Origin: Adineta ricciae
Taxonomy: Eukaryota; Rotifera; Eurotatoria; Adinetida; Adinetidae
Assembly (NCBI GenBank): GCA_905250025.1
Contig: CAJNOJ010000066.1
Location: 124,001 to 188,000 of the forward strand
Direction: 5' to 3'
DNA: 64,000 bases
The notes under the pieces were generated by a model, which did no database searches, was not told the origin of the DNA, and was given only the letters and a program-made list of their open reading frames with translations. Every line of letters starts with the position of its first letter. Position 1 is the first letter of the stretch. Below are positions 15,810 through 26,146 of the stretch, one piece after another. Both the position numbers and the translations under genes were made by a program.

Positions 15810-17732
15810 TCAGTCATCGATATCGAATAGACGTGAGAAATATTCGAATGTTAGGTAGGCAACGGTCGATGCAGGAAGAACTTTGATCAAGTTTGGCAAT
15901 GAACCAAAATAAAAACCACGCCAACCATCAATTCTAATTTTTCAAACGAAAGTTTTTTCATTTCTTTCTTTCAGAACAAAAGATCTCTCAAGAAATCATT
16001 ACCTCCATATTCTACCCATCATTTCAAACATATTCTCTGGTACGATCTGATACTGTTGCCTTGTTCGGATAAGATACAATGGGTATGACGCATACATAGC
16101 TGCTAAAGCACTGATATTTGAGATCATTGTAAGTGTCGCAATACCTAACAAAATACACAGAAAGATAACGACTGTTATACGATGATGAAAGATATTTGTA
16201 CATACTGGGTTCTTCTAGTGACGTAACTTTTTCACGGTAAACACGCCGGAGGTATTCGTAAAGAGCAAAGTCGATGCCAGCAGCAGGAAGTACTGGAGTC
16301 AGAAAATAGATGCATGATCAATTATTTCGAACACTTTTCATGTGTTTTACCTCCAAGAGAATTCGCTATATAGCCTCGATAGAAGACTCTCCAACCTTCA
16401 GTTTGATAAAGTTTTCGAATAAGATCCATAATTGAACTATATTGTCCAGTTGTTCGCATGGCGGCTAAACGAAGAGCATGTATTAAATTGACACAAAATT
16501 TTTCTCTTACCTTGTGTTTTCAACACTTCCAACGGATAAATGCATGTCTGAGCAATAAAACCAGATAAACATCCTAGACCAAATAATTCTTTATTTGACA
16601 CAGGTGAAACAATCTACAAATGACTGTTCTAATGATTTCCGTTAGCTAAACTACCTTCTTACGATTTCATCATAATCACCACGAAGCTCTCGAAACGTTT
16701 CAAAAATGCCTTGTCGGAGTGCCATTTCCGGTGTCATCTTAAACACAGCAATTCCATTGCCACGCCAAAATGATCGAATACCTTTCACACCACGTCCACC
16801 TTCTCCATATAAAGCACTTCAAATATAACAAATTGAAATCGATCAACACGAACGACGCTCGATAGTTACCTTGCTGTATTTAGTAACTTTTTCTTTCCCA
16901 TGGCTTGCATATAGATTTTCAATCGATCTAATGGTGCGGTTACGGTTCGACTAACCATGCCCGATAGTGCGCCAGCGATGAAATGCCGAGAATAGAAACC
17001 ATTTTCGCGTTCTTTTTCCGTATATGAATTCGGCATTTGTTGTTCGTTAATTGTATCTAATTGTACACCACGTCGCCATGAACGAAGTGATGCTTCGAGT
17101 TCAGTTGAAGGTGCGAAACGAAAATATGTTTGCCATTCGGAAAACGTTATGTTGAAATCTTTGTCTCGATCGAGTACTTCGATAATCTTCATAAGATCTT
17201 TCTTTTTCAAAACGATTTTCAAACGCGAAAATGCCTTAGCTAATTCAACTGGATCAACTAGAGAATCCAACACAATCCAGAGATATGAGTTTCACAGCAA
17301 ACATCATTCTTACCAACACCATCTTTGTTCAGATCGATTTCTTCAAAACTAAACCAATAAAATTGAAATCTGACCTTGTACTAACAAAAGACGGTTACCT
17401 TAGTTTGAGTTGTTTTTGTCTTTCAAGCATTATCTGAAGAAACTTTTCTCCATCAATTCGATCACCTTTTGGTTTCAATGATGAGACTACGAACGAGATG
17501 GGAAATACAAATAGGCACTTCAATTTTGATCCTACTCACGAAATTTTCTGACTTGTTTCTTTCGTTCTGGTTTCGATCGGTTATCTTCATCAATGCGTTG
17601 TAATGCTGCTTCTAAATCAACGATGCGTATTCGTCCACCTCCATCTTGATCGAGTTCATGAACCAGATTTTCGAGTTCGTGAAAACTTTCTTCACTTTGA
17701 TCACGTTTGTTCTTTCGACCAAAGCTGAACAT
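15810..17732 (-). CDS. SCaMC-type calcium-regulated mitochondrial ATP-Mg/Pi carrier (SLC25A24/25-like)
   Basis: These inner-membrane carriers exchange ATP-Mg for phosphate and are switched on by cytosolic calcium through N-terminal EF-hands. EF-like loops are visible at DQDGGGRIRIVD, DLNKDGV and DRDKDFNITFSE; the first has Asp instead of Glu at position 12. The carrier domain begins FIAGALSGMVSRTVTAPLDRLK with the PxDxxK signature, and repeats with YPLEVLKT-like and GWRGFYFGSLPNLIKVLPA segments follow. The protein ends FEYFSRLFDIDD. The start MFSFGRKNKRDQ lies 13 codons before the first EF region, and an AAATTTTAG acceptor lies about 14 bases upstream. The exact paralogue (A23, A24, A25 or A41) cannot be settled by eye. 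Confidence 0.9.
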
Positions 17733-18081
17733 ATGGAGAAAAGACCTATCGTCTAAAATTTATTTCAAACACAAAACATATAGATTGATTTGGATATACA
17801 AAGTTCAAAATAGATATTTCGTAGTTTTTAATTAAATGAATGTATCGAATAGAGAAGATAAATATTGGACCTAAGTTACAAATAGCACAAACACGAAACA
17901 TTGTCGATGGAATTTACTTCAAGTGGTTTGTGAAATAAATTCACTGTTAGGTGAAACGGATAGCGAGAGAGAGAGACAGACAGACAGACAAAAAATAAAA
18001 CTATTAAACAGATATGAACAGATGTATCATGACTAGATTTGATGAATTTTGATTGAGATGAAAGTATATTCAACGGTGGCT
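17733..18081. other. Short gap between the carrier and the myosin gene
   Basis: AT-rich sequence between a myosin stop and the carrier start on the minus strand, containing a short GAGA/CAGA run near 17967-17990. No gene was seen. Confidence 0.4.
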
Positions 18082-21000
18082 TTATTTCGTAAATGGTGGA
18101 ACGATCGCGATGGGTAATTTTGCCGCTGTATTGAATGCATTGTTAATTAACATTGGACGAGTTGTATAGAGTTTCGAAGAATATGGATAAGGAGGATTTG
18201 CATAATATGAGATTGGCAATGTAGATGTGCTCTAAATGAAAAAATAACTCTTTGGTAAAAAAAGAATGAAGGAGCAACTTAGCAGATTTTAATAAACTGC
18301 TCAAGTTATCGAATGCTGACGAAGTGAAATCTCTGACAAATCAAATATTCAAGTAGTTGAACTATAGAATTTAAGCAAGCGAAGAACAAAAGCATTAATG
18401 TTCTGTTATCTCCTACTCTTTCATTTGATTAATTAGGTGTGTTCTAAAAACAGATGTATTATGTCGAAACAAAATCAAGGAGTGAAGTCGTTTGATATGA
18501 TTTACATGAGTTCGATTGGCAATACTTTTCGTCGGCTGAGAAGAGCGATTGTTCGGAGCATTCGGCAGAGGTGTTAACGAATCATGATCATACTGTGACC
18601 AATCCGCCTTGCATGGATCTGTTAAACGACCATTCCAATTCGACAATTCATGCTGCAAAGGAAAAGAAAAGCAAGTGGCTATGGAAATAGAAATCGGACT
18701 GGAAACTCACTATTCGATAGTAGTCAATTAATTTCTCGAGTGATTGATGAACTTTTGCTTCGCCAATAACGTTGTATTTGAGATTCTTCAATTGATTTAT
18801 CATATAATGCCGACATCGATCTTCAGCACTGAATATACAATGACATTTACTTTAGAAGTTTTTATCTCGCACAAGGTAGTTACCGGAATGAGAGTGAAAA
18901 ACCAAATCGACTTTCACTTAGTCGAATGAGAAAACAACCAATGGGCTGATTTTTCAATAAATCTTCTGCGCGACTAGAAGAAAACCCCGACATAGGGCAA
19001 AGCGTTAAACTCAGTTATTCGATTCGACTTACTGTCGAGTGATATTTCCATGAAACCAACTAGGAAATGTACCATTGTGACATACGTATGGATATTGAGT
19101 ATCACGAAACCATCTGCAATAAAGGAGCTTTTTGTCAAAGAAGACAAAGATTTTGATTGACAAACCTTAAACACGATTCACGTTCACCAGGCGAACCATA
19201 TTTGAGTGTCAAATGAGAAAGTAAGGAATCATAATCAAGCATCAGTTGGTTAGTAGTCAAAGTACTTGTTGGAGTACTCGGAATCGATGACATTTTGGCT
19301 GCTGGTAGAGAATATTTACCAGCAAGTCCACTATTTACCAAATGTGACGAGGAATTCAGTGAACTCTCACGTACCGGTGGACGAGGACGAAGATCATGCT
19401 CTGTAATAACAGCAGGCGTTGGTTGACCTAATAAATACATGAATATTTTACACTTTTATCTCCTTATCTTGTTAGATGAGATATACCTGGTAGTTTATCA
19501 TTCAGTTGAGTCAATGTGTATACATATCGGTTATTCAAATCTTCAATGTAAATACATAGATCATTCGTTTCATTTCGATAATTTTTCGATGCTAATTTCA
19601 GTTGTTGAAATAATTTTCTCGCTGTGTGACCACGCTGAACTATAAATACGAATCAAACAAAAGATTGTTGTTCATTACGTTGTAAATATGATTTACTGCG
19701 TTGAATTAATAGAGCTGCTTTGCGATATTTGTTCATAAGTTTTTCCAATTGTTCCGGATGATAATATTTGAGAAAAACTTTCGTTTTCCTGTACGAAAAC
19801 ATACTGTTGAAAAAATCGGCTTTTTTTTTAATAGACAGATTTTCTTACCCTAATTGCCATTCACTTAATTTCGTTTCTTCGAGAATATGGCGACATGTAT
19901 TCAATGGTGAATCAGAAGAACGAAGTCTTGATAGAAAACCATATCTGTAAAGCATTACATGTGCATGAAATAACTCGAGATTAGAAAATTTGATTTACTT
20001 TCGTATGAATTCTTCGAACGTTAATCGTACAGAGTATCCTTCCTTGCGAATTCGCGTTGTTTCTAACATACCACAATAGCGAAGCTAAACGACGAGGCAG
20101 ATAAATAGTTGATATTCGTTGGAAAACATCGTACCTGTGCGCGAACGAATGTAGCATCGAATAAATGTGCTTGTTTCTGTTGATTTGGTTTAAGACAACG
20201 CATGAATACTGGATGTGATGCGCACATACGATCCATAAGAACTTGCAAAGAATTCTATGGAACAAACAATCATGATCACGTAGTCTTGACAAGAATATCT
20301 ACTTACGCGGTATTGAGCACCAACAGTCAGTCGATTTCGAGCATCTTTTTCCGCTGCTGTTCGATGTTGCAGCTAAAATAAATCGAAAGTAGATTTTCTA
20401 ATCAGCCTCTGCAATTCATTCCTACTCGATTATTCAAATGAATAGTTCCATCCGATGGGTTTCCATGGAAAAGTAACCGTATGAGATCATCTTGGCTATT
20501 CTTGAGCATATCGACGACACTGTCCGACAGTGTATCCCGATTTTTCTCCAGAAATCCTAAGGCACAGTATGACACTTTGCCAGCATAATGATGAACCGTG
20601 AATGAATATTTGTTATTTCGATTGATCGAATAGCATTCATGTTTATTTGTACCAAAGTGATAATTCAATTTCTCAACAAATGTTTGATCAGTTGCCTGTC
20701 AAATCAATATTCATCGGCATTCTTTGATAATGACTTTAGATTATTTCTTACTTTCGGAAGTCGACTTTCGTCATCTAATAACGAAAGAATACCCAAAGGC
20801 TTGGCCATAAACAATTCCTAAGGAAGAAAGTTTTTATCTCAAAGAAAACAATAGTTAATCTTACCAATAAGGAGTGGTTATCCGTAAATGATAATGTTTC
20901 AGCGACAATGCCTTCGCTTTCATATTCCGTCATTTCCATACGAAAAATATGCTAAATGAAAAGTAATAGAAAGGAAAACCTATGTTTAGATTTGAGTACT

Positions 21001-22858
21001 TGATTGAAGAAATATTGAATTTGTTCATTGGCTAGATTAATGCACAATTGTTCGAAGCTATTCAATTCAAAATGTTCAAAACCTAGATTAGAGTTTTCAT
21101 GAATAGAACTCCAGTCAAGAGAATCACAAATGGTTTTCTCTACAAACCATAAATATCCAAAAGGCCAATTTCAGCGATTTGATAAAATTCTTGTGAAGGA
21201 TAAGGATTATTCAATGTTTCATTTATTTTGCCAATCAACCAAGAAAATAAACGAGCATAGAGATGTTTCGATAATGCATCACGTGCATCTAAACATGTGT
21301 AGATCGTAGTTATCTCAAATGGAAAATCTCAATAATCTACCTTGACTGGATTGTAGACTGAATTTTCTAGTCACTCTTTCATTTCGCGTCAATGTTGTGA
21401 TCGTTGTCAGACATTCCATAATCAAATCCGAATTTACACCAAACATATTCTGAACGACGATAAAAATATATTAAATATTTCAAAAAAAGAGAATGACTTG
21501 ACTCACAGCAATGATTACGAGATTGTTTTTGGTTTTTTCTTCGTCGAAATTTTGTCGAGTGAAGCCTTCGTCGTCAGTGGAAAACTCCAAATTACCAATA
21601 GTTAAAATACCAGATAGGATACGAAACATGGAATGTTGTTCCTGAAGAAATATATCAGCATTTCTTACTCAATTTCTTGAATGAAGACATACTTTATCAG
21701 TAAAATTCAGCAAACCCATTGCATTCACTACTTCATCTAACGAATTACCAGCACCAGTATGTTGTAGATCGGTTGATGAACTTGTCAAGAGGTATCTTGA
21801 AAAAACGAAATTGATTGAAATGAATCTAATTTTTAGGAAAACTATGAATTGTCTACCGGTAGTCGTATTTTGTATGAAGACACAGCATATTTTTTACTTC
21901 TGACGGGAGATAATCAAATAAATAGCAGAAAATATGGAAATTTCGTTCGCCTGGACTTTGTGTTACGACACGAGATTTTTCTAATAGATAATCGCTTATC
22001 TGAGCACCAATCACTGAAACAAAACTCGTCGTCTGAATCAACACTATTTTCTTCAATGCATGAAAATTACCTTTGCCATTCACGAACTTGAGAGCGATAT
22101 ATTTTCCGAATCGACTTGAATTATTATTCATCACAGTTTGTGCATTGCCAAAACTTTCCAACAAAGGTGTAGCCTGAAAGTTTTAACAATAGTTTCCGGT
22201 TAGCTTCGAAGTATACCGATGTTTACTTGTAAAATTTGTTGTTCCAATTGAGAACTGCCTCCACATAGATACATCAATTGTTTCAAAAATAATTTTGTAC
22301 TTTCTGTTTTCCCTGAACCTGATTCACCACTAGAGCGAACAACGAAATTGATACTTTTAGAATTGCTTTGTACAAGCAATATGTGTCTCACCTGATTACA
22401 CAGCATTGTTGATTGTAAATACCGTGACAAACATTTCGATAAACAAGGTCCACGAGTGCATAGACATGAGGCGGTTTATGAATATCAGTTGAATAACGAT
22501 AAAGATCACGAATCTAATCGATACGTAATAAAGAAATCATATTTATTACCTTGGATCTATAAAATATGTTGGATACTAGACGTTTACCTTTGTAGTATAG
22601 AGACTTGTTTCGTGAAATGGATTGACAGCAACGAGGATATCTCCAAGATATGTCTAAATAGTATGAGAAAAGTAAAAATCGATGTTGAGTAAGAGAAAAA
22701 TAACTTACATAGATCAGATCTTTTTCATATCGTTGCTTCAGTTGTTCAAGTAGAATATCTTCTGTTAAAAAACTAAGTTTAGCAAGATCATCGTAGTGCC
22801 CATCTTTAGATAGAGTATCCTTATCAGAGACGAGTAATTGTTGCTCTTGTGTCAACAT
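18082..22858 (-). CDS. Unconventional myosin (class III-like motor) with an IQ motif and C-terminal SH2 domain
   Basis: The motor begins near [15 protein letters not shown] and [20 protein letters not shown]. It has the P-loop [12 protein letters not shown], switch [34 protein letters not shown], switch II LLDIYG|FEHFE, the HHYAGKVSY and GFLEKN blocks, and FMRCLKPNQ before the converter. One IQ motif follows ([17 protein letters not shown]). A linker of about 130 residues then leads to a canonical SH2 domain: [27 protein letters not shown] (FLVRES-type, with the phosphotyrosine-binding Arg), [17 protein letters not shown] and [17 protein letters not shown] segment resembles the SH2D2A/HSH2D-type extension. 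The likely last exon (about 18231-18082) is tyrosine-rich and ends IVPPFTK. All tail joins I traced are in frame. Length is about 1,150 residues (estimate). Actin and ATP binding are expected from the family; phosphotyrosine-dependent targeting is inferred. Confidence 0.88.
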
Positions 22859-23517: not shown

Positions 23518-24959
23518 TTATTTCTTCTCATCGAATTGACCGGTAAGTACTTGAGCAACATAATTGATTGTTGTTGGATGTCTCAGAATAGCTAGATGTT
23601 CAGCACCAGGAATTTCTAAACTATGTATATCGGCTTTTTGTTTACCTTCCCAGTTCTTGAACCCTAGTAAACTTCGAATATTCACTGTCCCATCGCCATC
23701 ATCAGGTAGACAAGTAGGTTGTAGATCGGGAAATGTACGATTATCGTATAGAAATGCGCCAGGAGTTGACATACCACTACCATATAACTGATGTATTTCA
23801 ACTTCCGGTGGTTTTAATTCATCAAGTAAATCTTTATTATTGAGCCAATATTGATAGCCAGTTGGAAATTGTATATCATTAAAGAGAGCTTCATAATCAT
23901 TGACAGTATAATTACGCTGCGGTGTAACAACAAGCACTTCATCTTTACCCCAAAAGTTGACACTGGGCATGACGAATGCAGTTGATGGGGCGGAACGTTG
24001 ATAAGGTCGAACACGGATAGGAGACACAACATAGACCTATATAATCAAAACAAAGCATAGTTTTGTATCTTGTTTTCGAAACTATGCAGATCGATCCATA
24101 TAGAGGCTATTTAGCACATATCTTACATCAATGTTGTCCCCGCTGATCATCAATCGAAGTGCTTTTATTGCGCCGCCCCACGGTGAAGCGATGTTGATCA
24201 TGGATTTGATATATTTTGCTCTGAATGCAGGTGTTTGTTGATGAAGCCAATAGAGAGAAAATGGACCTAAGAAAACTTTTCATTATGAGAAAAAAAAACA
24301 GTTGGCTACTAACCTCCCATACTATGTGTCACAAGTACGACTGGTGTTTGATTGTTTAATTCATATGTTTCAATGACTAATTGTGTGAAATTTTTAAACC
24401 ATTCATCTTGCTCGTCCAGACCCCGTCGAAAATCATATCTAATCGATGTATAGAAGAAAGACTTTTTTCTCTATCTGAAAATGTCACGGTGAACTTACGG
24501 AGCTCCACGTAGATTGACACCTCGCGTGAAATTAAGTTTTACCAGATTTTGTATAATTTGTGCAAAGTATGATGAATAGTAAAAACCTGATGAATCGAAA
24601 TATTCGACAGTAGATGTTTGCCCAAAGCCTGGTATTTGCGTTTCTACGCCTTCTAAATTCGATGTTTTTTTTGTTGTTTCATTATACAACAAACGCATGT
24701 TGTCCACAAAACAATCGATGACTTCAGGAGCGATCAACTCAAGATTGAGCCATAGTTCAAACCAATCTGAATGACGATAACAGAAGAAATGTGGTGGAGG
24801 TAACGTACGATTTAATCGTGCCCAAATTTGCGAACCACCATCACCAGGAATAAATATAGCTGGATATTGTATATCAGCAGCATTGATATGATTGAAAATC
24901 GAAATGAAAAAATACAAACACAAACAGAAGAGCATACAATCGATATTGTGTATGTACAA
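23518..24959 (-). CDS. LCAT/PLA2G15-family secreted or lysosomal acyltransferase/phospholipase
   Basis: Members are alpha/beta hydrolases that transfer or hydrolyse acyl chains of phospholipids (LCAT in plasma, PLA2G15 in lysosomes). A signal peptide is visible around residues 8-27 (CMLFCLCLYFFISIFNHINA). Family blocks follow: IPGDGGSQIWARL, SDWFELWLNLELIAPEVIDC, DNMRLLYN, PGFGQTSTVEYFD and NLRGAPYDFRRG. The nucleophile motif VTHSMGG is at about 24322-24342, and ASPWGG follows. The acid LPDDGDGTVN and the histidine in GAEHLAIL complete the triad. The four or so introns are short. Sequence blocks (LNLE, NLRGAP) look closer to PLA2G15, but the eye cannot exclude an LCAT-type assignment. Confidence 0.92.
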
Positions 24960-26146
24960 ATGTAAAGAATAACGAATAATCTAGAAAGCAATAATTGAAA
25001 TACTAAAGGATTAGATCATTCTTCTCATACACAAGCTAACTGAATGGCTTTCATTTCATCGTGAGCGTGAGAGCAGATAAGAGTATGTATGACACATCGA
25101 ACACCAAATGATTTTAAGCCAATCGAATCCAAATTGGATTAGTCATTTAGTTTTAATCTATCATACGAAAATGGATACTTTCATTCTTGAAGTATAAAAT
25201 AATATTTTATTCAAAATGTTTCGCATTGCTGAAATAGGAATTAAACGAAAATTTATCTTATGGCGACATCTGCATCGGCTAACTCCAACAGACAATTTTC
25301 TATTCGTGTCGTCTATGAAGTGAAACATATGAGCATGAGTCGACGATTGCACTGCTCATTGTTTCACCCTCAATATACTTACTGATCAGTAAAGATAATA
25401 GAACAGTTTAAACATGTAATACTGACGTTCATTGCTAAAAGATTCTGTGAAGTGTTGAGAGGATTGATAGAAAGAACAACACTGAGTATTCATTGATTGA
25501 TTTATTGTAGAGTGAGAAGCAAGATAAACAATAAAAATAATCTCTTGCGAACAAAGTATGGTGTAATGAGACATACACATTCACAGATGGAAGGCTAACT
25601 CTATACAACACTAACGATTCTTCGTCCTTCTGAATATGATATAAATGAGATCGGGGAATATCTTCTGAAATGAATAATTCTTTCAGAGAGCATTGGTAGG
25701 AACATATTCTTATGCCGGTTGAGAAACAATACAAGAATGTTAAGTATCAGTGAACATTATTCAGTTACTAAGTATGTAATTGTTACTGAATAAGTTCAGA
25801 TTGATGTACTTTGAGTAGCCGAAGACAAAATATTCGTTGTTCTTCGCATTCGTCTAATTGAAAGGATGTGAAAAAATATTGCTCGATACGATTCAAATAC
25901 ACTTCTAATTGTTCGTTATCACACGCAAAACAAGTCATTACATAATAGAAGACTATTTTACTGCAATATTTTTTACTATACGAAAAGATCAAAGGGAATC
26001 CAACTGATAAGATTGTCATGTTTTTCTAGATACATAAATAAAACTGCCTACTTCTTTTTTTGAATCATTGAATTGTTGAAGAGCATATTTCATAGGAGTC
26101 AAGAATCGTACACATCTTATACCAGACTCATCTTAATCTTGATGCA
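24960..26146. other. Region with possible gene remnants but no recognisable gene
   Basis: Minus-strand ORFs at 25435-25734 and 25783-26019 have partly coding-looking composition (for example FTSFQLDECEEQR), but they show no family signature and no consistent exon structure. They could be relics or terminal exons of an unknown gene. Confidence 0.3.

Follow-up and report, generated by a model that had tools for sequence, protein, structure and literature searches.

A minus-strand gene in a 64,000-nucleotide stretch of the bdelloid rotifer Adineta ricciae (GenBank assembly GCA_905250025.1, contig CAJNOJ010000066.1, positions 124,001 to 188,000 of the forward strand; this whole stretch is called the window) very probably encodes a class-28 (XXVIII) unconventional myosin, a motor with an SH2 domain in its tail that would dock on phosphotyrosine partners. 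From the sequence, we give this reading a probability of about 0.93. We joined 26 exons at GT-AG borders from 22858 down to 18082 and obtained a frame from ATG to TAA of 3,156 bases and 1051 residues (the window protein). The original prediction, made from the letters alone, had placed a single minus-strand gene at 18082..22858 and had named an internal stop in the spliced frame as grounds for rejecting it. The spliced 1051-codon frame reproduces those coordinates exactly, all introns are GT-AG, and we looked for internal stops and found none. It had also proposed a full myosin head, with a P-loop, switch I, DIYG and CLKPN, one IQ motif, and a complete SH2 domain with an FLIRLSES pocket, and had suggested running Pfam on the joined protein. 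We located all of the motifs, and Pfam reported Myosin_head at residues 23-695 (E 9e-205) and a full-length SH2 domain (E 7.6e-19) in one protein, E-values that exclude a chance match.

We compared the window protein with a set of homologs consisting of the best 120 of 7,935 matches among 7,970 candidates scored (the listed homologs), from which we chose 69 sequences for alignment. An FLVR pattern matches anywhere in a protein, so we took conservation of the phosphotyrosine pocket from this alignment instead. The features of the gene are as follows.

18082..22858, minus strand: whole coding gene, 26 exons, 1051 residues, very probably a class-28 myosin (spliced frame and match to the deposited protein P0002)
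19697..22858, minus strand: exons 1-19, which encode the motor domain and the start of the IQ motif (Pfam Myosin_head, exon borders)
22299..22328, minus strand: P-loop [10 protein letters not shown], residues 114-123; G114, E115, S116, G117, G119, T121 and E122 invariant in the 69 aligned sequences
22102..22128, minus strand: switch I NNNSSRFGK, residues 163-171; N163 and N165-K171 invariant in the same alignment
21148..21157, minus strand: switch II DIYG(FE), from residue 394 and running on into exon 11; D394, I395, G397, F398 and E399 likewise invariant
20183..20197, minus strand: CLKPN, residues 607-611 (motif search of the window protein)
19614..19706, minus strand: single IQ motif IQxxxRGxxxR, residues about 716-727, by sequence; split by a 57-base intron
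19222..19496, minus strand: tether, residues 767-838, predicted disordered, with a predicted local distance difference test score (pLDDT) under 50
19095..19112, minus strand: WFRDTQ, residues 858-863, in the predicted helix (852-867) just N-terminal of the SH2 domain; WF..[TS]Q in 119/120 listed homologs
18717..19058, minus strand: SH2 domain, residues 876-951, exons 22-24 (Pfam profile positions 1-77 of 77)
18910..18933, minus strand: FLIRLSES, starting at residue 898, with phosphotyrosine-pocket Arg901
18429..18443, minus strand: alternative 15-base last exon (NTPN, stop), used in the deposited model P0002
18082..18231, minus strand: exon 26, bdelloid-type C-terminal tail, with YAN (Tyr1012) at 18196-18204 (YxN comparison of tails)

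Up to residue 1002, the deposited A. ricciae protein P0002 equals the window protein letter for letter; beyond it, the 15-base alternative last exon 18443..18429 replaces the distal 18231..18082. A second deposited A. ricciae protein, P0001, matches the window protein at 1027 of 1051 positions; the alignment has 19 gap columns at the place where P0001 keeps as coding sequence the intron that interrupts the IQ motif. A DNA search of the rotifer's own genome with the 90-base SH2 exon returned one match, the exon itself, although a diverged copy could escape such a search.

Motor domain and neck

The active-site motifs of the motor are intact, and actin-activated ATPase activity is putative. The nearest solved motors by sequence were myosins VIIa, X and XV, and a fold search ranked the myosin X motor first. 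The structure model, which we built on P0002, had a mean pLDDT of 76.5 and a predicted template-modeling score (pTM) of 0.68. The TEDS rule concerns a motor position that in other myosins can require phosphorylation. The window protein has Glu337 there, and glutamate or aspartate occupies the position in 91 of the 120 listed homologs, the other 29 being unmatched by the pattern.

The IQ stretch, [16 protein letters not shown], begins at residue 712. Pfam reported no IQ model for the window protein at E <= 0.01 and did report one for the Didymodactylos and Brachionus relatives. The 57-base intron within the motif lies at 19640-19696 on the minus strand; in P0001, a model of another copy, the corresponding stretch is translated into 19 residues, and this spoils the motif.

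Tail and SH2 domain

Two predicted helices, 835-846 and 852-867, lie between the tether and the SH2 domain in the structure model, and the SH2 domain itself is well predicted (block pLDDT 83-93). Both pocket residues, Arg883 and Arg901, are invariant across the 69 aligned sequences. The sequence thus supports an SH2 domain with an intact phosphotyrosine pocket, and phosphotyrosine binding is putative.

Class membership and distribution

The original prediction had suggested a search for the myosin-plus-SH2 architecture in other taxa. Precomputed Pfam annotation gave both PF00063 and PF00017 in 120/120 listed homologs. Besides rotifers, these come from sponges, cnidarians, molluscs, an annelid, a brachiopod, a bryozoan, echinoderms, hemichordates and lancelets, and among vertebrates from sharks and rays, bony fishes, salamanders, a turtle, an alligator and birds; no mammal is named among these best 120 of 7,935 matches. 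Identity to the window protein was 63-100% for the named bdelloids, 48% for Brachionus and about 40-47% for other animals. The window gene is a rotifer member of a known, widespread class and not a new architecture, and we rejected a rotifer-only invention because SH2-tailed homologs extend from sponges to birds. By itself, the gene adds a rotifer to a myosin class with that span.

The window protein shows three of the features that define class 28: its motor groups with those of the class, an SH2 domain lies in its tail, and by sequence it has one IQ motif. In a motor tree of 33 rows, 19 class-28 motors formed one clade (Shimodaira-Hasegawa-like approximate likelihood ratio test [SH-aLRT] 99), within which the window motor grouped with A. 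steineri (100), Didymodactylos (100) and Brachionus (99). We assigned the 18 other class-28 rows by their SH2 tails, not by published labels, and excluded two own-genome rows of under 380 residues. The clade excluded three MYO3A motors of mammals and eleven further myosins of the rotifer's own genome. Foreign genes are well known in bdelloids, and on that reputation the gene could have been brought in by horizontal transfer. We rejected this as extremely improbable because the bdelloid motors group with monogonont Brachionus, as vertical descent predicts.

Many listed homologs bear the database label "myosin-IIIb-like," and the window motor is 43% identical to that of human MYO3A, which would fit descent from class III through loss of the kinase and gain of an SH2 domain within rotifers. 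SH2-tailed relatives in sponges, cnidarians and vertebrates show that the gain of SH2 was not a rotifer event. Motor identity was 90% to A. steineri, 70% to Didymodactylos and 45-50% to eight class-28 members outside the bdelloids, and MYO3A is excluded from the class-28 clade at the support given above; we consider such an origin very improbable. Class III myosins are marked by an N-terminal kinase domain. The Pfam scan of the window protein found no kinase domain, the HRDxKxxN motif occurs in 0/120 listed homologs, and the upstream gene is LCAT-like; we rejected class III membership.

One gene or two

The two domains could instead belong to neighboring genes, a myosin and an SH2 adaptor, wrongly merged in one model. 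Fusion models do occur nearby, since the Didymodactylos model P0009 merges an LCAT gene with a class-28 myosin, and vertebrates have SH2-only relatives. Here, the splice borders and the frame continue through every tail exon, and motor and SH2 domain are joined in separate named models from Adineta, Rotaria, Didymodactylos and monogonont Brachionus and in many phyla. Both domains are also present in 20 of the 120 listed rows, all of the source "lgn," whose contigs are 1.02 to 1.56 times the length of the coding sequence. One of these, P0007, which matches 99% of the window protein at 77% identity, has 2,994 coding bases on a 3,072-base contig. Contigs of such size leave hardly any room for 25 introns, and we therefore took the "lgn" contigs for transcripts. 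On the frame, the splice borders, the separate models and the transcript-sized contigs, we rejected the merger, to which we leave a very slight chance; the original prediction had likewise held that this does not look like two fused gene models, and the same evidence bears it out.

An LCAT-like (lecithin:cholesterol acyltransferase) gene lies directly upstream on the same minus strand (23518-24980), and the fusion of the two genes in P0009 suggests a gene order common to bdelloid families. Downstream, at about 16651-17759 on the minus strand, are gene pieces whose EF-hand and mitochondrial carrier matches resemble those expected of a calcium-dependent mitochondrial carrier.

Several points weigh against the class-28 reading. 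The gene model, and with it the predicted transcript, was spliced from genomic sequence, and the transcript status of the "lgn" contigs comes from the size ratio. The motor tree came from a quick search with no bootstrap, took one own-genome motor as its root, and sampled class-28 motors, mammalian MYO3A and own-genome myosins but neither classes XVI, 36 and 80 nor the choanoflagellate SH2 myosins. In that rooting, nine own-genome motors of unassigned class are the sister of class 28 and MYO3A branches further away, so that the tree gives no support to class III as the nearest kin. The class-28 definition includes a short coiled coil; the structure model predicts a single neck helix at 698-766. 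Finally, a [DEQ]Y..[LF] stretch follows the SH2 domain in 92/120 listed homologs, and its usual form is missing in bdelloids, including the kin of the window protein.

Kinship with the SH2D2 adaptors

By sequence comparison, HSH2D and SH2D2A, adaptors of vertebrate immune cells, are the nearest non-myosin relatives that we found of the SH2 module in the window protein. Among solved structures, human HSH2D (2cs0) ranked top with the window tail alone (80 bits, the next 60). With a profile of 15 class-28 tails, HSH2D scored 130 bits and SYK was second with 103 bits for its two SH2 domains together; the best single SYK domain scored 60.6 bits among the five alignments listed. Searched with a coelacanth class-28 tail, a protein set limited to lengths of 149-474 residues yielded 31 matches among 53 candidates, mostly partial class-28-like models, several of them named SH2D2A-like, SH2D4A-like or HSH2D. 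Partly interleaved with these were a shark HSH2D homolog (143 bits), crocodile SH2D2A (123) and SH2D4A (83-85), with PTK6 far behind (41-42). Several vertebrate entries with such names in P0121-P0133 are 63-76% identical to a class-28 tail and seem to be partial class-28 models under a wrong name. The rotifer SH2 region matched shark HSH2D at 45% (116 bits), crocodile SH2D2A at 42% (110 bits) and SH2D4A with 63-69 bits. Against class-28 tails, the same query scored 127-129 bits with two from vertebrates, 134-150 with most from invertebrates outside the bdelloids and 119 with that of Brachionus.

WFxxTQ precedes the SH2 domain in HSH2D and SH2D2A, as does WFxxEQ in SH2D4A. After the SH2 domain, PCGQ or PSGQ...YxxL is found in shark HSH2D (PCGQ...YEEL) and SH2D4A but not in crocodile SH2D2A. 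The SH2D2 adaptors, like SH2D4A, are without a motor domain, and the window protein, which has the HSH2D-type SH2 module and is not a motor-less adaptor, is no member of their family.

In a whole-module tree with sponges as the outgroup, shark HSH2D and crocodile SH2D2A grouped with six vertebrate class-28 tails (support 97/96); the six tails formed their own clade beside the adaptors (92/97), and the lancelet fell outside. An SH2-only tree with six outgroup SH2 domains grouped three SH2D2 rows with the same six vertebrate tails (82/97) and set the class-28 and SH2D sequences apart from the outgroups (91/94). Approximately unbiased (AU) tests do not reject a separate SH2D2 origin, with class 28 as its own clade (p 0.096 for the SH2-only tree and 0.159 for the whole-module tree), and the SH2D2 rows are few (three and two, respectively) and on long branches.

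A review treats SH2D2A, HSH2D and SH2D7 as one family and places HSH2D among the pY-x-N readers; the word "myosin" is absent from the accessible part of that text (PMC9783222). No link of SH2D2 adaptors to myosin appeared by title or abstract start in the literature searched, which had most subscription journals outside its reach. We tentatively propose, at slightly under even odds, that HSH2D/ALX, SH2D2A/TSAd and probably SH2D7, the last by its listing in the review only, may be class-28 tails that lost the motor after an early-vertebrate duplication. Such descent would give the lymphocyte adaptor family a concrete origin and would predict that adaptors and class-28 tails bind the same class of ligand and use the WFxxTQ helix in the same role. 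The lymphocyte adaptors would then be motor-less myosins, and class-28 myosins would be the place to seek their original actin-cortex role.

A YxN motif in the bdelloid C-terminal tail

The gene has two possible last exons on the minus strand, at 18429-18443 and 18082-18231, and the bdelloid YxN tail is in the distal one only. YxN occurs as YAN, YIN or YSN in 8/9 bdelloid-group tails versus 5/111 other tails. The nine counted were those of the window protein, P0001 and P0003-P0009; P0002, with its other last exon, was left out. The distal-exon tail is nearly unchanged in P0001 and P0003-P0006 and takes more diverged forms in P0007, P0008 and P0009. It is possible that the YxN tail is a self-ligand of the SH2 domain, with few independent events behind the pattern.

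Carried further, the SH2 domain might act mainly as an internal latch, with phospho-Tyr1012 closing the tail on its own SH2 domain or linking two tails and the short last exon giving a form without YxN. The contrast between bdelloid-group and other tails, the variation of the middle residue (A, I or S), the listing of HSH2D as a pY-x-N reader in the accessible part of PMC9783222 and the existence of the alternative last exon would all fit such a latch. However, the nine tails are close kin, two of them from one species, and so represent few independent events; the motif is absent from P0008, and the exon from P0002. The alternative exon is known from the deposited model alone, and YxN specificity of this SH2 domain is putative. 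We therefore regard a mainly internal role as unlikely and favor docking on phosphotyrosine partners.

Proposed mechanism

We infer the function of this class-28 rotifer myosin throughout. The motor would pull or tether on actin while a single calmodulin-type light chain occupies its IQ site, and the acidic Glu337 at the TEDS site suggests that a heavy-chain kinase may be unneeded. The SH2 domain, on a predicted flexible tether of ~70 residues, would dock on tyrosine-phosphorylated partners, and kinase activity at a membrane or adhesion site would in this way recruit actin-based force there. By kinship with HSH2D, the preferred SH2 ligand may be pY-x-N.

Comparison with known systems

The original prediction had known of no characterized animal myosin of this kind. 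As to architecture this did not stand, since the class has had a name since 2007 and SH2-tailed kin were reported in 2014; as to function it did, in that we found no functional study of class-28 myosins in the literature searched, most subscription journals being outside its reach. In the accessible parts of the sources, class XXVIII was defined by Odronitz and Kollmar in 2007 from Nematostella, Xenopus, chicken and some fishes (PMC2375034), and the 2017 revision extended class 28 to Capsaspora and mentions rotifers for class 36 only (PMC5583752). A sea-star egg study, in the part available, has "myosinIIIb-like" among its SH2 transcripts, oddly listed as a tyrosine kinase (PMC11593052).

MYO3A of class III has a related motor, as the identity to the human protein shows, but in 120 listed rows, all from mammals where named, Pfam annotates a kinase domain and no SH2 domain. 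The SH2 myosins of choanoflagellates and filastereans, reported by Sebe-Pedros in 2014 as myosin III-like proteins with an SH2 domain, C-terminal in filastereans, share the combination of motor and SH2, a likeness drawn from the accessible description (PMC3942036) and not from sequence. Class XXVIII, as described in the accessible text of its definition (PMC2375034), shares with the window protein an IQ and SH2 tail and the lack of a kinase domain, and the window motor stands in one clade with the SH2-tailed myosins of vertebrates, cnidarians and others. Compared with the 2007 list in that text, the window protein would be a rotifer member with a bdelloid-type C-terminal tail.

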